A stretch of DNA of 64,000 nt from positions 105,275-169,274 of IMG/VR virus record IMGVR_UViG_3300037247_001890. One strand, 5' to 3'. This DNA comes from a virus. A program made the position numbers and the translations under genes. The notes beneath the pieces were generated by a model. The model was not told the origin of the DNA and searched no databases. It saw only the letters and a program-made list of their open reading frames with translations. Below are positions 31,647 to 57,544 of the stretch, in pieces (the stretch's first letter is position 1; each line of letters begins with the position of its first letter).

Positions 31647-31941
31647 AATATTATTTACAACCGGACTTCCGGCAAAAAATCGATTAAGAATAAATGGTCA
31701 TGGTATACATCAATTTATCACAAGAATACCTAGACCAAAGAGTAGTCCAAAAGCATTAGTCATTAGTTCAGAATTCGCAAAGGAAAACAAAATAATGTTA
31801 TACCCAGATATAGTTACATCCGGGGAAGTAAAAATAACTATAGTTAATCTAACTCCTTACCCAGTAGATTTGGAAGAGAGAGATCATATAGGAACTTTTG
31901 TTGCATTACCACCTTGCGATTGCAAAACTAACAATGACTAA
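31636..31941 (+). CDS. beta-rich protein, possible dUTPase-like fold
   Basis: The 101-residue product has a strand pattern resembling part of trimeric dUTPases and dCTP deaminases: ALVISSEFAKENKI, YPDIVTSGEVKITIVNLT, and VDLEERDHIGTFVALP. In dUTPases the GEIKI-type strand and the basic 'gDRiAQ' region follow in this order. Here the catalytic Asp motif and the C-terminal P-loop-like tail are missing, so if related it is not a standard enzyme. It precedes the ribonucleotide reductase, a nucleotide-metabolism context. Confidence 0.35.
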   Translation: MSNKILFTTGLPAKNRLRINGHGIHQFITRIPRPKSSPKALVISSEFAKENKIMLYPDIVTSGEVKITIVNLTPYPVDLEERDHIGTFVALPPCDCKTNND

Positions 31942-33920
31942 TGGAAAAATTTAAATTATCAAAACCATTTATAGAACAATACTCAGGAAAACAACCTAAT
32001 TGGGGCCCACTGGGATATGTTACCTACAAACGATCTTACGCACGTCAAATAGAAAAAGAGCGTAGAACAGAAGAATACTGGGAAACTCTGGAAAGAGTTG
32101 CCAATGGCGTCTATTCTATACAGAAGATGCACGCTCGCAATCTGCGATTACCTTGGAATGATCAAAAATCACAAAAATCTGCTCAGACAATGTTTAGATT
32201 GATGTGGGAATTCAAATTCTTACCGCCAGGAAGAGGATTATTTCAGTCTGGTACAGATTTTGTATACGAAAGAGGAGGTGCCAGTTTACAAAATTGTGGA
32301 GTTATTTCTACCAATGAGTTAGATACTGACTTCGCCTACCCCTTTGCATGGATGATGGATATGTTAATGTTAGGAGTAGGGGTATCTGGTGATACCACCG
32401 GCGCTGGAAAAGTAACTATACAATTTCCGGAACAAAGTGATGACCCATTCATAATTGAAGATAGCAGAGAAGGATGGGTAGATGCCCTCACCATGGTATT
32501 AGAGTCGTTTATAAATAAGCAAAAACTACGACCATTGGACGCATCTCTCGTTAGACCAAAAGGAAGCCCCATAAATGGTTTTGGTGGTCTGGCCAGTGGA
32601 CCCGGACCACTATTAAATACTTTAGATGATATAATACTTATTTTACATCCAAAAAAGAATGGGAATGCTCCTTATAAATTACGATCAGATCAAATAGTAG
32701 ACATATTTAACTTGGTGGGTCGATGTGTCGTAGCAGGAGGAGTTCGTAGGACTGCGGAATTGATGCTAGGTGATCCAAATGATGACGTTTTTCTAAAATT
32801 AAAACAAGATAAGAAAAAATTAAAATCCCATAGATGGGCTAGCAATAATTCCATAATGGGCACAATCGGAATGGATTATACCAAAGTAGCTGAAGCTGCC
32901 GCCATTAACGGGGAACCCGGGATACTCTATTTAGATAATGCTAGAAAATATGGTAGAATGATAGATCCCCCTAATTTTAAGGATCGTAGAATAGTTAATT
33001 TTAATCCATGTGCAGAGCAACCGCTCGAATCTGGAGAAATGTGCACCTTATGTGAAACGTTTCCTTCTAATCATGCTAGTTTAGAAGATTGGATAATGAC
33101 ATTAAAATTTGCATACTTGTATGCAAAAAGTATCACGTTATTATCATCACATAATGAACGTACAAATGCAATAATGGCAAGAAATAGGCGAATTGGTTTA
33201 TCAGTTAGTGGTATTATAGATGCTTTCAATAAATTTGGTCGAAGAAATGTACTAAATGCAATGGATGAAGGTTATAAAAAAGTAGCAGACTGGGATCGAG
33301 TCTATTCTGACTGGCTAGCCATACCAAGATCAATAAAAAAATCAACAGTAAAACCTAGTGGCACTGTTTCTTTACTAGCCGGAGTTAGTCCAGGCATTCA
33401 TTATCCGCATTCAGAATACTATATAAGACGCATAAGGATGCGCGATGATAGCCCATTATTAAAAATTTTAAAAGATGCAAATTATAAAATAGAAACTGAT
33501 TATTATTCCCCGAATACTAAAGTAATAGAATTTCCCATGCATGAAAAATATTTCATCAAAGGGAAAAACGAAGTTAGTATATGGGAACAGGTAAAAAATG
33601 CTGTAGATCTTCAGTATTATTGGTCAGATAATTCTGTATCAATTACTGTCACAGTAAAAGAAGAAGAAAAGAAAGATATAAAAACAGTACTGGAAGCTCA
33701 TGAAGACTCATTAAAATCTATTAGTTTTTTGCCATTAAATGATCATGGCTATGAGCAACCACCCTATGAGTCAATAGATGAAAAAACATATAAAAAATTA
33801 ATTGCAAAAATAAAACCATTAAACTATGAAAAATTAAATGGAAATGGAACTGTTCACGATCAAGACGAAAAGTTTTGCTCAAATGATAGTTGCGAGATAA
33901 AAATACCTAACGAGGAGTAA
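31941..33920 (+). CDS. nrdJ: adenosylcobalamin-dependent ribonucleotide reductase (class II)
   Basis: This enzyme makes deoxyribonucleotides for phage DNA using vitamin B12. The 659-residue protein has active-site Cys spacing like the Lactobacillus monomeric enzyme: C119 in ASLQNCGV, C357 and C368 eleven apart (NPCAEQPL and EMCTLCETF), and a C-terminal pair C646/C651 (FCSNDSCEI). KPSGTVSLLAGVSPGIHYPH is the substrate-site signature. It starts at an ATG overlapping the previous stop by one base. Host B12 supply is implied. No separate activase or beta subunit is needed. Confidence 0.92.
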   Translation: MEKFKLSKPFIEQYSGKQPNWGPLGYVTYKRSYARQIEKERRTEEYWETLERVANGVYSIQKMHARNLRLPWNDQKSQKSAQTMFRLMWEFKFLPPGRGLFQSGTDFVYERGGASLQNCGVISTNELDTDFAYPFAWMMDMLMLGVGVSGDTTGAGKVTIQFPEQSDDPFIIEDSREGWVDALTMVLESFINKQKLRPLDASLVRPKGSPINGFGGLASGPGPLLNTLDDIILILHPKKNGNAPYKLRSDQIVDIFNLVGRCVVAGGVRRTAELMLGDPNDDVFLKLKQDKKKLKSHRWASNNSIMGTIGMDYTKVAEAAAINGEPGILYLDNARKYGRMIDPPNFKDRRIVNFNPCAEQPLESGEMCTLCETFPSNHASLEDWIMTLKFAYLYAKSITLLSSHNERTNAIMARNRRIGLSVSGIIDAFNKFGRRNVLNAMDEGYKKVADWDRVYSDWLAIPRSIKKSTVKPSGTVSLLAGVSPGIHYPHSEYYIRRIRMRDDSPLLKILKDANYKIETDYYSPNTKVIEFPMHEKYFIKGKNEVSIWEQVKNAVDLQYYWSDNSVSITVTVKEEEKKDIKTVLEAHEDSLKSISFLPLNDHGYEQPPYESIDEKTYKKLIAKIKPLNYEKLNGNGTVHDQDEKFCSNDSCEIKIPNEE

Positions 33921-33923
33921 TAC

Positions 33924-34166
33924 ATGCGATATGAAAATCGCAAAGAAGGACACTTTAAGTTCTACGAAATTGATTTAATTCCAGGACCACCAAATGACCA
34001 AGGAAGGGACACTTACGCTGTTAGGGCTAGTTGGGGAAAAATTGGAACCGCTAAGCCACGAGCGGAAATAAAAGCAGTTGGTTCATTTGAAAGATGTTTT
34101 AAAAGAATGGAAAAATTAATCAAAAGAAGAGAACAGAGAGGTTACGAAAAAATAACCGATAAATAG
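33924..34166 (+). CDS. stand-alone WGR-domain protein
   Basis: The 80-residue product is a single WGR domain: HFKFYEIDL, then YAVRASWGKIGT (here WGK), then AVGSFERCFKRMEKLIKRREQRGYE. In PARPs and bacterial proteins this fold binds DNA or RNA ends and breaks. It follows the reductase by three bases, with GAGGAG before the ATG. There is no attached ligase or polymerase domain, although a ligase lies elsewhere in the window. Role probably in end recognition; unproven. Confidence 0.75.
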   Translation: MRYENRKEGHFKFYEIDLIPGPPNDQGRDTYAVRASWGKIGTAKPRAEIKAVGSFERCFKRMEKLIKRREQRGYEKITDK

Positions 34167-34203: not shown

Positions 34204-34575
34204 ATGATAGATCTAAACACACCTTTAGGAACATATTCCAAAAAAGGTACCATTGAAGACATTCAAGTAGAAACAGTAATGATTCCCATGGAAGGCGACG
34301 AACCGGCAAAAGAGAGAGAAAAGATTTGCTTAATGGTTAAACGGGAAGATGGAAAAATTATCCGAGTAAATGAAGTATTCGTTAAAAATTATAACGGATC
34401 AAAAGTACAAAGGGGATTGTGGGCTTCAACTGATGCTTCCGGATCAGTTAACTTCTTTTCCACACTTGGAAAATTTATGAGAAGATACGGAAAAAACACT
34501 ATAGAAGATTTAAAAGGTCTGGAAATAGATTTGTATATAGGAGAAAAAGATCTTTTAGTTGGAAGTGTTAATTAA
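34204..34575 (+). CDS. hypothetical protein (123 aa)
   Basis: The 123-residue product is mixed alpha/beta. The strand-rich first two thirds (IEDIQVETVMIPM and REDGKIIRVNEVFVKN) are followed by a helical stretch with GKFMRRYGKNTIEDLKG. It lies between the WGR gene and a terminator and has no clear ribosome-binding site. It could be a small nucleic-acid-binding OB-like protein, but this is a guess from strand spacing. Confidence 0.5.
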   Translation: MIDLNTPLGTYSKKGTIEDIQVETVMIPMEGDEPAKEREKICLMVKREDGKIIRVNEVFVKNYNGSKVQRGLWASTDASGSVNFFSTLGKFMRRYGKNTIEDLKGLEIDLYIGEKDLLVGSVN

Positions 34576-36697: not shown

Positions 36698-36940
36698 ATG
36701 ATAAAACAGAAACAATTCGAAAAAAAAGAAATTACTTACCGTGTAGTTTCCCCAAATGGTCATGATGAATGTACATTCGATCATAGTACCGCTTTGACAA
36801 ATATTCGCGCTTTAGTCAAAGATGAGGGAAAATGGTTATATATAAATAATGATTATGTTAACCCTGAAACTCTTACAACAAGAGATTTAGATCAGGCAGA
36901 AGATATCATTTTAACAAACGCCGTAGCTGGTGGATGTTGA
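36698..36940 (+). CDS. ubiquitin-like protein ending in Gly-Gly-Cys
   Basis: The 80-residue product has a beta-grasp-like order. An N-terminal strand pair (EITYRVVSPNGHDECTF) is followed by a helix (TALTNIRALVKDEG), then WLYINNDYV. The end, DLDQAEDIILTNAVAGGC (G78, G79, C80), resembles the MoaD/ThiS/ubiquitin C-terminus with the activation Gly-Gly and one extra residue. Exposing Gly-Gly would need removal of the Cys, and a JAMM peptidase gene follows. Ubls are activated by E1-like enzymes and joined to proteins or used as sulfur carriers. The assignment rests on size, fold pattern, tail and neighbours. Confidence 0.75.
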   Translation: MIKQKQFEKKEITYRVVSPNGHDECTFDHSTALTNIRALVKDEGKWLYINNDYVNPETLTTRDLDQAEDIILTNAVAGGC

Positions 36941-36944
36941 CAAT

Positions 36945-36970
36945 AGGGGAGACTTGTCTCCCCTTTTTTT
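36945..36970 (+). terminator. intrinsic terminator between Ubl and JAMM peptidase genes
   Basis: AGGGGAGAC (36945-36953) and GTCTCCCCT (36956-36964) form a perfect stem with a tight loop, followed by a run of T. It lies four bases after the Ubl stop and 15 bases before the peptidase ATG. Read-through would set the ratio of Ubl to its enzymes. Confidence 0.85.
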
Positions 36971-36985
36971 AAATAGGACACTAAA

Positions 36986-37495
36986 ATGGATAGAATAGAC
37001 ATTGCTTCTGACCTAATGGAGCAATTAAAAAATTACGGAAAAAAATACTACCCTGGGGAATGTTGTGGCCTTTTAACTGGCATAACTCGACGTATAAACA
37101 ATAATGTTAGATCGGTACCAGTAGAATTTCATCCAATTGATAATGTCAGTAAAGAACCATATAAATGGGATTACGTTATGGATCCAAATCAATACATGAA
37201 TGTGTTGAAAAATACAACCTTATTTAACAAAAAATCTGCAATTGAATTAACTGCAATATTTCACACGCATCCGAATAACCTACCAATTCCCAGTCAGTAC
37301 GATATTATTGGGGCGGCATGGTATACTGCATATTTGATTTACGGGATAGCTACAGATTCTATGGCGGCATGGTTCTGGGATGGTACATTCTTCAAAAGAA
37401 TACCCATCAATGAAGAAAAAATAACGCAAGATACCGTCTATGCTGATGGAAAAGAAAGGGATTGGGAATCATGGAAACATGTAGGATCGCTATAG
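36986..37495 (+). CDS. JAMM-motif metalloprotease (JAB/MPN domain)
   Basis: The 169-residue protein is a JAB/MPN domain. GECCGLLTG supplies the catalytic Glu (E25), and FHTHPNNLPIPSQYD is the zinc motif H-x-H-x7-S-x2-D (H93, H95, S103, D106). Such enzymes cleave after Gly-Gly of ubiquitin-like proteins to mature them or to release them from targets. The ribosome-binding site TAGGA precedes the ATG. Its stop lies inside the E1-like gene, so both are coupled. The gene order matches bacterial Ub-like operons. Confidence 0.85.
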   Translation: MDRIDIASDLMEQLKNYGKKYYPGECCGLLTGITRRINNNVRSVPVEFHPIDNVSKEPYKWDYVMDPNQYMNVLKNTTLFNKKSAIELTAIFHTHPNNLPIPSQYDIIGAAWYTAYLIYGIATDSMAAWFWDGTFFKRIPINEEKITQDTVYADGKERDWESWKHVGSL

Positions 37496-38073
37496 TTGGA
37501 GCAGGCGGTATTGGGAGTTATCTCTGCAAAGAAATGCACAACTTCCATAAGCACGATCAATTCGGAGCATGCAATGTTGAGATAACTGTATGGGATAATG
37601 ATACAGTTGATATGAAAAATCTAAAATACCAAAATTTCCAAGAGTTTGATTTAGGTGACAACAAAGCAGAAGTGATTGGCATGAGATATGATTTTGATTA
37701 TGAAATAGAACGGTTAGAAGAAGAAGCCGCATTTAACAATTATAATGTAATAATCGCAGCAGTAGATAATAGTAAATTTCGCAGATTACTTTATAATTGG
37801 GCTGAAAAAAATGCAGAAACATACTGGATAGATCTAAGATCAGAAGGTAGAGCAGTTGCGTTTTTCACACAACATAGAAGTAATACATTAGAAAAAATGC
37901 TTGATACATTAGCCGATACACCAGAGGAAGGTACCAGTTGTCAATTGGCATTTGAATTGGAAAAAGGCATTATACAACAAGGTAACAAAATAATAGCCGC
38001 AATAGGTTCACAATTATTTATCAACTACTTGCGACAAGAAAAAAATTCATCTAAATTCATAGCCAGGTTTTAA
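37471..38073 (+). CDS. E1/ThiF-like adenylyltransferase
   Basis: From ATG 37471 the product is about 200 residues. The nucleotide-binding GAGGIGS lies at 10-16, and the E1 hallmark WDNDTVDMKNLKYQNF follows with GDNKAEV. GTSCQ (C157) is a possible thioester Cys. E1-like enzymes adenylate the C-terminal Gly of a Ubl and pass it on. A TTG nine bases earlier is an alternative start; both lie within the JAMM gene. There is no zinc-binding CxxC, so this is a minimal E1 core. Confidence 0.85.
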   Translation: METCRIAIVGAGGIGSYLCKEMHNFHKHDQFGACNVEITVWDNDTVDMKNLKYQNFQEFDLGDNKAEVIGMRYDFDYEIERLEEEAAFNNYNVIIAAVDNSKFRRLLYNWAEKNAETYWIDLRSEGRAVAFFTQHRSNTLEKMLDTLADTPEEGTSCQLAFELEKGIIQQGNKIIAAIGSQLFINYLRQEKNSSKFIARF

Positions 38074-38840: not shown

Positions 38841-40058
38841 TTGAAATTTGAAAATTATCTAAAATTTGGAAAAAAATTAATTATTGAAGGTTTTGCAGAA
38901 GAAAATTTCATAAAAAATTCTAAAGACGATTTAATAGGATTTGGAATAGATAGTGATAACAGAGTTCTTCATATGTTTACAGATACATATGAATTAATTG
39001 AATCTACTAGGAAAGGCCTTTTAAATATTGATGGTCAATTTTATACGGATATGCCACCTTATGAGTATGTATTTAAAATAGATAGTCAGTTTTATGCTAT
39101 TTTCTACACTTTAATTCACGGGGTGGATTACAGATACAAAGCTTCTATTGTTAAAAAAGATATGACGCAAGAAGAAGGAATACAAATACTTAGGAAATTG
39201 GTAAAAGACTATGTCAATCATAGAAAACAAATACAAGCAAACCTGTTTAAAAGAAGTGAAAAAATTCTAGATGACGTCATATTACCCAAAGAACTTAAAC
39301 AATCCATATTAGGTGATATAAGAAATTTCTTAAACAGTAGAAAAAAGTATAAAGAATTTGGAATGGTCTGGAAAAGGGGTTATATTTTTCACGGACCTCC
39401 TGGAAATGGTAAAACACTCTTCTTGCGAAAACTTGGCGGGGCCTTTGGATTAAATATGACTGATATGACTAACAGATTAGATCAAGATGGTACCCTAAGA
39501 TTGCCACAACATGCAGAACCATACGAAAACGGCAGTAGTAGTCTCAGTTTAGGTAAATTAGCTTCTGGAGATGATGAAGACAATCCTCCAGAGATTTATT
39601 ACTTAGAAGATATGGAAAAAGTCATTGGTAAAAATGATGCTGATTTTGGTAGAATTACACTATCCAATTTCCTAACTGCTATTGACGGTGTTTCACGTTT
39701 GGCTGATGGTTTGATAATTATAGGTACAACGAATCACAAAGATAGGCTAGAGAGTGCAATTATAGGTCGTCCAGGAAGATTCGATAGGGTTTATGAATTT
39801 GCAAGACCTACGAATGCAGAAATATACAAATTCTTTGAACGTAGAAATTTTTTGATTGAGAATAAAAAGGTGACTACCGAATATTCGGATTTGATGACGA
39901 GAAAAAACTTTAGCATGGCTTTTGTTGAAGATTTTATACTATCCTGTGTAACAAAAGTCGACAAGCACATAATATCGACATCTATTGCGGATTCAGTAAT
40001 CAAAGACCTAGAACAATATAACAAACTTGAAGTCGAGTCAAACATGGGATTCAAATAA
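38841..40058 (+). CDS. AAA+ ATPase (BCS1/FtsH-like core), TTG start
   Basis: TTG 38841 follows GGGAGG by four bases. The 405-residue protein has a poorly conserved N-terminal ~165 residues and then an AAA+ core: Walker A GPPGNGKT (185-192), Walker B IYYLEDME (E256, D257), sensor IIIGTTNH, and the Arg-finger segment GRPGRFDRV. This core resembles BCS1-like and other remodelling AAA+ proteins. It follows the Ub-like operon, where an AAA+ unfoldase would be a logical partner, but no substrate is known. Confidence 0.75.
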   Translation: MKFENYLKFGKKLIIEGFAEENFIKNSKDDLIGFGIDSDNRVLHMFTDTYELIESTRKGLLNIDGQFYTDMPPYEYVFKIDSQFYAIFYTLIHGVDYRYKASIVKKDMTQEEGIQILRKLVKDYVNHRKQIQANLFKRSEKILDDVILPKELKQSILGDIRNFLNSRKKYKEFGMVWKRGYIFHGPPGNGKTLFLRKLGGAFGLNMTDMTNRLDQDGTLRLPQHAEPYENGSSSLSLGKLASGDDEDNPPEIYYLEDMEKVIGKNDADFGRITLSNFLTAIDGVSRLADGLIIIGTTNHKDRLESAIIGRPGRFDRVYEFARPTNAEIYKFFERRNFLIENKKVTTEYSDLMTRKNFSMAFVEDFILSCVTKVDKHIISTSIADSVIKDLEQYNKLEVESNMGFK

Positions 40059-50488: not shown

Positions 50489-52099
50489 TTAGAACTGTAG
50501 TTCTATCTTGATGTAATTGACAGGATATTTGACTAATACATTTAGACTAATTTCTATGGTATCAGGGGCTTCTTCAGCCTGTTCAATCTTAAGAATTTTA
50601 ATATCATTGACATGGCCGTTTTTAATAAGGTATAAAATTTGTGCCTGTAGTGACATAGTAAGCAATTTCAAGAACTGTGGACTAATATTATAACGTCCAA
50701 TATAACCGGATAATCCATTACGCATGAATTTTGCTATAAAATCTAAAGTTTTCAAAATACTCAATTCCCGTCTTTCAACAGAAGTCATATCAGTTGTTAA
50801 TTGATGTCTACAGTAAATTGGTGCTGTCGAAGAAGTTTGAATTAACAGATAATTACCACCCTCGGCCATAGTATTAAGATCAGATTCGGTAAATTTATCC
50901 ATTGAATACATCAAACGACTTATTCCGGTCACAGCTAAATTAGTAAATGGTGTTTCAGGTGGATATCCAGAAATCATACCACCAATAGCTGCTGCACCAA
51001 TAGTACCAGGTACAGGAGATTCAACTATCATAAAAGTATTTTCTGTTGCTAGGTTAGATAACATAGCAGGAGTTAGTATTTCACCTTTTCTGTAAGAATA
51101 CCTAGTTCCACTTACTGTAACAGTTTTATTTTCACCTAAATAAAACGGTATGCCCGAAACGCCTTGAACTGCATCACGATAAGCATTTGTCAATGTAGAT
51201 ACATGACGTGATTCAGTTACAAATATTGTATCAGGAAAAGAATAGACAAGTCTACGCTCTTGTTGAACATATGCAGCTTCTTTTATCGCTCCAGCTGTAA
51301 CAGCTGTGTCAGCGCCATCTGCGTCGGAAGGATCACCACCGGCATCTTTCCAAGGTATACTTGGTGCGGCCACAACCATTCTCTCACGTTTTTCTTCTGG
51401 GGCTGAATAAGTAATTGCATGTGTTTTGCAGGCACTAATAACACCTGCTGTTGTTGTTAAAGGAACCATTGCATAAATTTCTCTGGTCTTTAACGTATCG
51501 AATGCTACATCTGAAGAAATGAATTCATTAGAAGTTGGCGCTGGTGAATCTTCAGTTACCGGGGATGCGTGTACATACCCGCCAGTATTGAGCATTGCTT
51601 TGTGTAATCCTACTCCTAATGGATTGTAGGATATGGTTGAACCTATTTTTTCTTCTATATCATCCAAATCCGACATAGTCAGAAATGGGTCTAGATCAGT
51701 ACGAAGTGCACGATATCCAATTTCAATTGCTGCACCATCATCTAATCCAACAACTTCAGGATAAGTCGCACCCAAACTCGCATTTATTTGTACAGATGTA
51801 GCACCTGCTGTAAAATCCGCAGCAGAATCAAGATGTACTCTTGTACCTGCAGAAGCCCCAGTGCCACCAATCAGATCAACATACACACTCGCTGTGTGTA
51901 CTTCTGCTCCTGATGGTAATCCAGCATAATCAACATCTATCTGGACTCCGCTGTATACTTCTATGTAAGAATAATCTCCTACTTCTTCAACAAAAAATGC
52001 TTTTCCAATTATAACCGTTCCTAAATCAGGAGAGATTAAACTTGGAGAAACCCTTACTTGGGTTTGAGTAACTTCGACACCTGGTTTTACATAACCCAT
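50489..52099 (-). CDS. tail sheath protein
   Basis: The 536-residue protein forms the contractile sheath. The N-terminus KPGVEVTQTQVRVSPS and LGTVIIGKAFFVEE is typical of sheath proteins. The C-terminal domain has SSTAPIYCRHQLTTDM and RRELSILKTLDFIAKFMRN and ends in INVLVKYPVNYIKIEL-like strands (here SLNVLVKYPVNYIKI). It begins after AGGAGT before ATG 52099. It directly precedes the tube candidate. Confidence 0.88.
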   Translation of the reverse strand: MGYVKPGVEVTQTQVRVSPSLISPDLGTVIIGKAFFVEEVGDYSYIEVYSGVQIDVDYAGLPSGAEVHTASVYVDLIGGTGASAGTRVHLDSAADFTAGATSVQINASLGATYPEVVGLDDGAAIEIGYRALRTDLDPFLTMSDLDDIEEKIGSTISYNPLGVGLHKAMLNTGGYVHASPVTEDSPAPTSNEFISSDVAFDTLKTREIYAMVPLTTTAGVISACKTHAITYSAPEEKRERMVVAAPSIPWKDAGGDPSDADGADTAVTAGAIKEAAYVQQERRLVYSFPDTIFVTESRHVSTLTNAYRDAVQGVSGIPFYLGENKTVTVSGTRYSYRKGEILTPAMLSNLATENTFMIVESPVPGTIGAAAIGGMISGYPPETPFTNLAVTGISRLMYSMDKFTESDLNTMAEGGNYLLIQTSSTAPIYCRHQLTTDMTSVERRELSILKTLDFIAKFMRNGLSGYIGRYNISPQFLKLLTMSLQAQILYLIKNGHVNDIKILKIEQAEEAPDTIEISLNVLVKYPVNYIKIELQF

Positions 52100-55280: not shown

Positions 55281-56627
55281 TTATGGCCAGAATTCGGCCG
55301 TTCTAAATGTTTTAAATATAGGCATTCTAAACTTACCCGAAGGTAATGCCTCTTGATACTCCACCGTCATGGGCTTACCCAAATAGTGAAGTTTGTTACT
55401 CCAAATCTGCTCTCTTTCGAAATCTGTAAAACCACCACCAACCCGGGTAATGGCACCTCTTCCAGCCTCATCTGGTGTAGCTAATATTTTTCCTAGTTTT
55501 CCTTCTAGTCTCCCTTTACCCTCCTCAAAACCTTGTGCATATAATTCTATATCTTGCTTTAATTTTGATTTAATTGGACGATCGGAATTTAGATCCCATA
55601 TAACCCATCCTTCAGTTGTGTGAGGATGCATACCACTTTTAATGGCATCATATAATCTCCTTTTATCTTTTGGGGTTTTTGCCATTATTGGGAGTTTGAG
55701 TTGAGGTAGTTTTTTTTGGATTTCTTCTAATAGCTCTATTTTTTCCCCGTAGGGTTTTTTAGAGTAATCCACACCTTTGTATTTATCAATATTAAAAATA
55801 ACATTATCGAATTTAAGGTGTCTTTTATCTACCTCAGCTCGCGCTTTCCACACATTGGCATTGAGCAGCCCAGTGCCTTCTCTATGTGGAAGCGATCTCC
55901 CTTCGGAATCACTAACATAAGCTTCTCCCCATAAGGTTGTTTTATCTAGTTCATCTGGCACAATTGTATTATATAAATCCGGATATTTATATGTACGATT
56001 TATTAGTTCCGGACCTCTTTTACTCTTTCTATAACTAAAAACTTCTACAGGTCTACCTTTGCGTAATACAAATATGGATGCAGCACCATCAATTTTCTCT
56101 GTTAAAATTTGGTTTGGATCGTCAAAAGTGATATTTTCCGGAGCTATTGATCTTGATTTTATTTTTGTCTCTGGTACTTCTGGCCTTGTATCCTTTGTAG
56201 GTGTCGTATTTATACATAACCAATTATCACCTCCCAAATAAATAAGTGTGTATTTTTGAGTTCCCGCTCCTTTGTAAAGATTGAAAGAAATTTTTCCAGG
56301 ATCTGCTTTCGTTACATGGATTTGACCTGATTCGGCTACGCGTACTTGCCCTTTACCATAGCCGTCTGTAATAGTTCCTTTAAAAGACATATACTCAGGA
56401 GTATGGTCAGGCTGTCGTGTCCATAATACTTTTTGTCCAAGAGAAGGTAATCCTTTCCGTGTAGCCCACGAATACGCAACAGAACCATCGGAGATTCTAA
56501 AATCATAATGTTGACCAGCTACATCTGCCTTGTGTAATTGCACAACATATTGCCACGTTTTATCTTTGACTATTGGGATTCCAGATTTTGCTCTTTTATC
56601 TGGTATTCCTTCTGCAAACAATTCCAT
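55281..56627 (-). CDS. ATP-dependent DNA ligase with LigD-type 3'-phosphoesterase domain
   Basis: The 448-residue protein fuses two end-processing domains. Residues 25-125 match the LigD phosphoesterase: VVQLHKADVAGQHYDFRI (H32, H40, D42, R44) and QPDHTPEYMSFKG (H75, Y79), all catalytic positions kept. Residues 165-448 are a nucleotidyltransferase: EKIDGA (K178, KxDG), TLWGEAYV, TEGWVIWD and PIKSKLKQ. It lacks the LigD polymerase domain and a clear Ku partner. It seals nicks after cleaning 3' ends. Start overlaps the GGDEF gene stop by one base. Confidence 0.85.
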   Translation of the reverse strand: MELFAEGIPDKRAKSGIPIVKDKTWQYVVQLHKADVAGQHYDFRISDGSVAYSWATRKGLPSLGQKVLWTRQPDHTPEYMSFKGTITDGYGKGQVRVAESGQIHVTKADPGKISFNLYKGAGTQKYTLIYLGGDNWLCINTTPTKDTRPEVPETKIKSRSIAPENITFDDPNQILTEKIDGAASIFVLRKGRPVEVFSYRKSKRGPELINRTYKYPDLYNTIVPDELDKTTLWGEAYVSDSEGRSLPHREGTGLLNANVWKARAEVDKRHLKFDNVIFNIDKYKGVDYSKKPYGEKIELLEEIQKKLPQLKLPIMAKTPKDKRRLYDAIKSGMHPHTTEGWVIWDLNSDRPIKSKLKQDIELYAQGFEEGKGRLEGKLGKILATPDEAGRGAITRVGGGFTDFEREQIWSNKLHYLGKPMTVEYQEALPSGKFRMPIFKTFRTAEFWP

Positions 56628-57544
56628 TACTTGCGATCCTTTGCTTGGTACATTGCTCTGTCTGCTAAATCAATTATTTTGTCTAAATTGATCTTTCCGG
56701 ATAAATCTGGGCATACAAATCCTGCACTAATGCCTAAAGTAGAATTATATTGCCCTTCATTCCACTTATTGAATTTATTTAATATTCTTTTCCATTGTAT
56801 TTTTGCCTGATTCAAATTTATATTATACCATGCAATTATAAACTCATCGCCACCAAGCCTGCAAAATATATCCGATTCACGAAGATCGTTTTTTATTATT
56901 TCTGCTACCTTTCTTAATGCTTTATCTCCTTCTACATGGCCATAACCGTCATTTATCCTTTTAAAATTATCTAAATCTAAATAGGACAGTGTAATTTCGC
57001 TGTTAGTTCTTTTTGCTGTTTTTAATGCTTGCTCTATAAGCATTAAACCAGTTCTCCTATTTAATATTCCTGTAAGATGATCCACAGTTGCTAAATATTT
57101 AAGTTGGTCTTCAAACTGCTTTCTTTCTGACATATTTCTAAATATTGTTGTAAAAAATATGTCACCATTTATTTTCCAATAACCTATTGATAATTCAACA
57201 GGAATCTCTTCTCCATCTTTTGATAAAACTTTTAAATCTAATCTTTCATATGTCGTTTTTGGTGGTATTTTCTGTAATGATAGCCACCTTCTGCAATGTT
57301 CATTTCTAAATCTTTTGGGAATAATTAATAATAATGACTTTCCTATGATCTCTTCATATGTATATTTTAACAAATGTTCGGCCGACTTGTTCCAAGAAAT
57401 AATAATACCATCTACATTTGACAACACTATAGCATCAGGAGCAGTTTCAAAGAGTGATCTAAATTTCTCTTCTGATGCTTTTATTGTTTTATAAACTACT
57501 TCAGCTACAGCAAAACTAGCAGGTTTCTCGGAAACTTGATTCAT
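56627..57544 (-). CDS. PAS-GGDEF diguanylate cyclase
   Basis: The 305-residue protein has a PAS domain at about 23-140 (FETAPDAIVLSNVDGIIISWN to FFTTIFRNMSERKQFED, quoted in part) and a GGDEF domain at 150-305. DHLTGILNRR opens it, LSYLDLDNFKRINDGYGH is the metal region, and RLGGDEF (231-235) is intact. The inhibitory I-site RxxD (R222, D225) lies the correct five residues before. It should make cyclic di-GMP from two GTP, with product inhibition, on a sensed signal. Such an enzyme in a phage is rare and could alter host motility, biofilm or signalling defence. Confidence 0.9.
   Translation of the reverse strand: MNQVSEKPASFAVAEVVYKTIKASEEKFRSLFETAPDAIVLSNVDGIIISWNKSAEHLLKYTYEEIIGKSLLLIIPKRFRNEHCRRWLSLQKIPPKTTYERLDLKVLSKDGEEIPVELSIGYWKINGDIFFTTIFRNMSERKQFEDQLKYLATVDHLTGILNRRTGLMLIEQALKTAKRTNSEITLSYLDLDNFKRINDGYGHVEGDKALRKVAEIIKNDLRESDIFCRLGGDEFIIAWYNINLNQAKIQWKRILNKFNKWNEGQYNSTLGISAGFVCPDLSGKINLDKIIDLADRAMYQAKDRK

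Follow-up and report, generated by a model that had tools for sequence, protein, structure and literature searches.

A stretch of 64 kb, the final part of an IMG/VR virus record of 169,274 bases and referred to here as the window, carries at positions 36698–38073 three collinear open reading frames for a ubiquitin-like protein (Ubl), a JAMM metalloprotease and an E1-like adenylating enzyme, and the evidence tips towards a virus-encoded ubiquitin-like protein-modification module. Sequence analysis and structure prediction show the ubiquitin-like fold (as a model), an invariant Gly-Gly, intact JAMM and E1 motifs and the co-occurrence of the genes. The maturation, activation and conjugation of the Ubl, the role of a large partner protein and an early action on the replication or transcription machinery are all inferred, with no activity, adduct or thioester measured. 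A first-pass annotation had proposed a virus-encoded set of a Gly-Gly Ubl, a JAMM peptidase and an E1, which is supported by fold prediction, family matches, gene order and catalytic residues; it had missed the large protein, a 123-residue protein, a related set in archaeal viruses and the lack of a recognizable E2. It had left the function among conjugation, counter-defence and sulfur transfer, and the choice among these is still undecided.

Gene organization and homologous loci

A scan of viral contigs with the window E1 yielded homologues (38–74% identity) on 11 other contigs. All 11 loci encode the large protein, Ubl, JAMM and E1 in that order, and a protein of ∼120–140 residues precedes the large protein in each (the copy in locus L012 was found by profile). 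The recurrence of the order Ubl-JAMM-E1 wherever E1 homologues were found on these contigs argues that the gene set is not a chance arrangement. An alignment-based E1 scan, from which 80 of 128 loci were kept, resolved two groups: group A (L002–L024 and the window), with a window-like arrangement, and group B (L025–L081). A scan of genome contigs with the E1 alignment found no relative.

Table 1. Positions of the module genes and adjoining features in the window.
Feature	Position	Strand	Evidence
123-residue protein, function unknown	34204..34575	+	Homologues in group A loci
Large partner protein, 684 residues	34640..36694	+	Alignment; C-terminal half conserved
Ubl, 80 residues, predicted beta-grasp, C-terminus Gly-Gly-Cys	36698..36940	+	AlphaFold2, Foldseek, Gly-Gly conservation
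Intrinsic-terminator-like hairpin and T run	36945..36968	+	Directly 3' of Ubl stop
JAMM metalloprotease, 169 residues	36986..37495	+	Pfam Prok-JAB, invariant catalytic residues
E1/ThiF-like adenylating enzyme, 200 residues	37471..38073	+	Pfam ThiF, PRTRC ThiF profile, motifs

The listed E1 reading frame begins at a TTG at 37462; the likely start is an ATG (37471) that overlaps the stop codon of the JAMM gene. In every group A locus long enough to cover this region, a homologue of the 123-residue protein is encoded immediately 5' of the large protein; this protein gave no meaningful match in Pfam, PHROG or NCBIfam. The hairpin that follows the Ubl stop in the window has a z-score of -3.2. Terminator-like hairpins occur directly 3' of the Ubl stop in the window, L002, L010 and L012, and L021 and L022 also have hairpins at that place, but without a clear T run; the sequences of these hairpins differ among L002, L010, L012, L021 and L022. 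Because a predicted terminator follows its gene, the Ubl may be produced at higher levels than its enzymes, which would suit a modifier.

Group B loci encode a TFIIB-like factor (zinc ribbon PF08271, 9.2e-6), a GroEL-like chaperonin and the ribonucleotide reductase NrdJ, a gene content that fits the Magrovirales of marine archaea (PMC10768690). Group B thus likely represents magrovirus-like viruses of marine archaea, an assignment made by gene content, with the host inferred. In these loci a related set comprises Ubl, E1, JAMM and a protein homologous to the C-terminal half of the large protein; the Ubl gene is found several genes before the E1, and the JAMM gene mostly after it. The group A Ubl profile detects the group B Ubls among the locus reading frames with E-values of 1e-10 to 1e-6.

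The module in the window has NrdJ, sigma-factor and PolA genes in its neighbourhood. All 24 group A loci have sigma-factor genes downstream of the E1, and a DNA polymerase gene usually comes after them. Relatives of TFB and NrdJ are found in 47 and 43 loci, respectively. This recurrence indicates that the module travels with nucleotide, transcription and replication genes.

Several other genes of the window were noted. A B12-dependent (class II) ribonucleotide reductase is encoded upstream of the module (31941–33920, + strand), and a small WGR-domain protein (33924–34166, + strand; 1e-9) is encoded between it and the module; another WGR gene comes after ThiF in the PRTRC plasmid locus L093. 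Downstream of the module lies an AAA ATPase gene (38841–40058, + strand; 6.3e-14) that is present in L002 too. A sheath-like protein (50489–52099, - strand) has its best matches in Vibrio phages D69, D148 and D181 and Salmonella phage Arash, and the Vibrio and Salmonella phages that match it also carry PRTRC-type E1s. The product of 56627–57544 (- strand) reads by eye as a GGDEF diguanylate cyclase preceded by a PAS domain.

The ubiquitin-like protein

The translation of the Ubl reading frame ends in NAVAGGC. An AlphaFold2 model computed from an alignment of 33 viral homologues (mean pLDDT 82.3, pTM 0.64) has the topology strand-strand-helix-strand-short helix-strand, with the Gly-Gly tail disordered. 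The best Foldseek matches in the PDB are SUMO, NEDD8, ISG15, ubiquilin domains and Caldiarchaeum ubiquitin, the exceptions being some SUMO-containing fusion proteins and, further down the list, a few names that look unrelated. The scores reach a probability of 1.00, a best E-value of 7e-3 and a TM-score of about 0.5; modest E-values are usual at a length of 80 residues. The best viral structural match is a 311-residue protein from an uncultured phage (26% identical). The model therefore predicts a ubiquitin-like beta-grasp protein. Searches with the Ubl sequence gave no Pfam family match, nothing useful in the PDB and, in a single-sequence scan of viral contigs, no relatives; the homologous loci were collected with the E1 in its place.

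Both glycines are invariant in the 33 aligned Ubls, and all 34 distinct homologues retain Gly-Gly, which is followed by no residue (nine proteins), one (five), two (17), three (one) or 160–161 (two). This variation in the length of the tail is the pattern expected of a processed C-terminus, although that reading rests on the sequence alone. The two Ubls with the long C-terminal extension (∼160 residues) are those of L010 and L012, and the extension shows no clear Pfam family. If the Ubl were attached to a target, trypsin would leave the 17-residue remnant DLDQAEDIILTNAVAGG.

The JAMM peptidase and the E1 enzyme

The second protein of the module matches Pfam Prok-JAB (1.9e-10). Its catalytic set (Glu25 and H93-x-H95-x7-S103-x2-D106) is complete, and all five residues are invariant in group A homologues. 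The nearest solved structures include JAMM1 (5ld9/5lda), and the NCBIfam haloarchaeal desampylase model is matched at 2e-15, below its cut-off. Seven of the nine Ubls that lack any residue after Gly-Gly are in group A loci in which an intact JAMM is still present, suggesting that the peptidase does more than trim. Deconjugation or the hydrolysis of a small-molecule adduct are both possible as an additional role, and either would explain its retention; the CysO/Mec+ pair is an example of the latter reaction. In L023 a tail-less Ubl is followed directly by the E1; its 63.7-kb record, possibly incomplete, gave no JAMM match.

The E1 matches Pfam ThiF (1.9e-15), and its best NCBIfam model is PRTRC_ThiF (TIGR03736; 3e-19, 69 bits against a cut-off of 144.75). 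It consists of an adenylation domain only and carries a GAGGIGS nucleotide loop; the G-x-G-G-x-G loop and the active-site Asp and Lys are invariant in the E1 alignment A3. Among 62 distinct viral E1s (14 from group A and 48 from group B), an S-C-Q motif is present in all 62 and the nucleotide loop, searched for as a simple pattern, in 61. The arginine of the N-x-x-R-Q motif helps to bind ATP in MoeB-type enzymes. A tyrosine occupies this position in all 62 viral E1s, so that adenylation by these enzymes is not certain. In a tree of 30 E1s, group A, group B and the PRTRC enzymes each split off (support 97/90, 99/99 and 100/98), with the caveats that the program warned of long branches meeting and that the root is a midpoint only. 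The viral E1s cluster together, separate from the plasmid PRTRC E1s.

The claims of the first-pass annotation about the three proteins held. The 80-residue beta-grasp-like protein ending in Gly-Gly-Cys is supported by AlphaFold2, Foldseek and the sequence, the JAMM protein has the complete H-x-H-x7-S-x2-D and Glu that had been read in it, invariant in its homologues, and the E1-like enzyme with GAGGIGS has an intact nucleotide loop and a Pfam ThiF match. Neither of the two outcomes named beforehand as refuting the proposal, the absence of a beta-grasp fold or a Gly-Gly that is not conserved, was obtained.

The large partner protein

A conserved protein of 650–790 residues precedes the Ubl in group A; it occurs in every complete group A locus and has a homologue in group B. 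Cys463, Cys480 and Cys645 (the last in the motif Y-x-C-I-V-D-K) are invariant in 14 aligned group A sequences. The C-terminal half corresponds to a 390–480-residue protein of the magrovirus-like viruses (hhalign probability 95.4, E-value 1.9e-8). All 13 group A proteins and all 39 group B proteins compared contain the terminal cysteine motif, the latter count being partly circular since that set was collected with a looser pattern that already required a cysteine there. The AlphaFold2 model is fair (pLDDT 73.3, pTM 0.42), and Foldseek found nothing at E < 0.001, all matches having a probability of 0.3 or less. As a candidate for a recognizable E2 the protein was rejected: it has no Pfam match, no worthwhile PDB match by sequence and no match with PRTRC protein B. 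The Y-x-C-I-V-D-K motif resembles E2 active sites, which is a lead only; a divergent E2 in this protein remains possible and is not excluded.

Proposed pathway

In the proposed pathway, the JAMM peptidase would trim the residues past Gly-Gly from the Ubl precursor (one cysteine here, ∼160 residues in some relatives) and would probably remove the Ubl from targets as well. The E1 would adenylate the exposed Gly-Gly and may hold the Ubl as a thioester on the cysteine of S-C-Q. The activated Ubl would then pass to proteins without a classical E2, with the large protein acting as a dedicated transfer factor, an adaptor or the main target. The module would act early in infection on the replication or transcription machinery, whose genes adjoin it.

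Conjugation is favoured because there is a dedicated partner, because JAMM is kept beside Ubls that are already mature and because no sulfur-donor families occur in the phage record. Prok-E2_B and Prok-E2_D were not found in the window's own record, where no control genome gave a positive either; Prok-E2_D was also not found in the group A and B records searched, and the same model did detect the PRTRC phages.

A bolder reading can be entertained only as a possibility: a complete virus-specific protein-tagging pathway that is common to bacterial phages and magrovirus-like archaeal viruses, with the large protein as a new kind of E2/E3, on whose invariant C-terminal cysteine the Ubl would be held before being attached to the transcription or replication machinery.

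Alternative explanations

The main rival, which remains possible, is a sulfur-carrier module of the QbsE, CysO or ThiS kind. JAMM would expose Gly-Gly or free an amino acid from a Ubl adduct, the E1 would adenylate the Ubl, and a host sulfurtransferase would make the thiocarboxylate from which sulfur passes to a nucleotide, tRNA or metabolite. QbsE ends in Gly-Gly-Cys-Phe and is trimmed by the JAMM protein QbsD. This reading ranks first among the rivals because the host could supply the sulfur and because the QbsE tail is very similar to the Gly-Gly-Cys and Gly-Gly-Cys-Tyr tails observed here; small E1s without extra domains are also typical of such pathways. Against it, the PAPS reductase, class V aminotransferase, rhodanese and PALP families are all absent from the phage record, no PAPS reductase was found in 14 related virus records and no conserved neighbour is a known thiolation or cofactor enzyme.

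A counter-defence role, in which deconjugation or a decoy modifier would act against host ubiquitin-like immunity (CBASS Cap2/Cap3, Bil or similar), is unlikely. Host ubiquitin-like systems that defend against phages have been described (PMC10097602), and the JAMM protein weakly matches PADLOC JAB models. However, a peptidase alone would suffice for this purpose, whereas the full set with Ubl, E1 and the large protein is kept in phages and magrovirus-like viruses; the E1 and JAMM are not closest to Cap2/Cap3, and the module adjoins NrdJ, sigma-factor and DNA polymerase genes rather than accessory genes.

A role in tail assembly like that of lambda gpI/gpK, where a ubiquitin-like tail-assembly factor is processed by a JAB peptidase, is very unlikely. 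In its favour, the best PHROG matches of the JAMM protein are tail proteins and lambdoid phages do pair a ubiquitin-like protein with a JAB peptidase (PMC1779556). Against it, the lambda type pairs the Ubl with TAPK and TAPJ and has no E1 listed (PMC1779556), whereas an E1 is present here. The locus also has no NlpC/P60 domain and is surrounded by genes for nucleotide metabolism, replication and transcription; the sheath gene and others that look structural are on the other strand. The gene context, as an inference, fits both counter-defence and tail assembly less well than a modification module.

Implications

Most of what is known of bacterial ubiquitin-like conjugation comes from cellular defence, plasmids and metabolism. 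The lambda tail cluster provides known examples of phage ubiquitin-like proteins (PMC1779556), and ThiF/MoeB has been reported with RaFAH to be prevalent in archaeal virus genomes (PMC8276007). No description of the present E1 clade with a Gly-Gly Ubl, a JAMM peptidase and a large partner was found in the literature searched, which left most subscription papers and bioRxiv out of scope, and the literature on phage Arash gave no description of such a module. That both large phages and magrovirus-like archaeal viruses have kept the module implies a function in viral growth. Since related viruses carry matching sets, microbial viruses may tag proteins much as ubiquitin does in our own cells, although the activity is inferred. 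The module is a small, apparently E2-less system that is open to testing, and it is relevant to the part played by viruses and plasmids in the spread of early eukaryote-like tagging.

Comparison with known systems

The PRTRC systems of plasmids and of phages KLEB27-3, D69, Arash and BgVeeders33 likewise encode a Ubl, a JAB peptidase and an E1 together, and the E1 described here is a clear relative of PRTRC ThiF by profile (probability 99.8%, E-value 1e-28). They differ in several respects. The C-terminus of the PRTRC Ubl is one Gly preceded by Lys or Asn, whereas the viral Ubl has Gly-Gly; PRTRC has a Prok-E2-like protein B, and none was found in the present module; and PRTRC E1s keep the N-x-x-R-Q arginine (14 of 14) that is a tyrosine in the viral E1s. 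Membership of PRTRC was rejected, as the E1 alone matches by profile and stays under the TIGR03736 cut-off. The Ubl, JAMM, large and 123-residue proteins gave no profile match with the alignments of PRTRC C, A, B, E and F built here.

PRTRC-type sets were found in cultured phages, which provide genetic handles. Bacillus phage KLEB27-3 (OM634661) encodes four tandem Prok_Ub domains in one reading frame (L086:718–1425), each ending in Lys-Gly, with JAB and ThiF genes nearby; from its sequence this frame is inferred to be a polyubiquitin-like precursor in a cultured phage. In Vibrio phage D69 (OZ195729), three repeats without a Pfam match (L097:4385–5176), each ending in T-G-T-K-G and laid out like tandem Ubls, adjoin an E2-like protein, a JAMM and a ThiF. 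Salmonella phage Arash (OQ632216) has JAMM and ThiF genes with a neighbour that contains an N-M-C-V-G motif (L096:1519–4539); two of these three genes are annotated 'structural protein', a label whose basis is unknown.

Lambda TAPI and TAPK are likewise a phage ubiquitin-like protein with a C-terminal glycine and a JAB peptidase (PMC1779556), but no E1 is listed for them (PMC1779556) and their gene context is different, whereas the present module has an E1. CBASS Cap2/Cap3 and Bil also use an E1 and a JAMM on substrates with a C-terminal glycine; these systems serve bacterial defence and include an E2 component. The JAMM and E1 match CBASS and other defence models only weakly, and assignment of the module to CBASS was rejected because the match with the Cap3 peptidase model (NF050170; 12.8 bits against a cut-off of 200) is far under the cut-off. 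QbsE/QbsD/QbsC, CysO/Mec+ and the archaeal SAMP/JAMM1 system likewise combine a Gly-Gly Ubl, a JAMM and an E2-less E1; compared with these sulfur carriers and SAMPs, the present module has no sulfur-donor or cofactor enzymes nearby and includes an additional conserved large protein.
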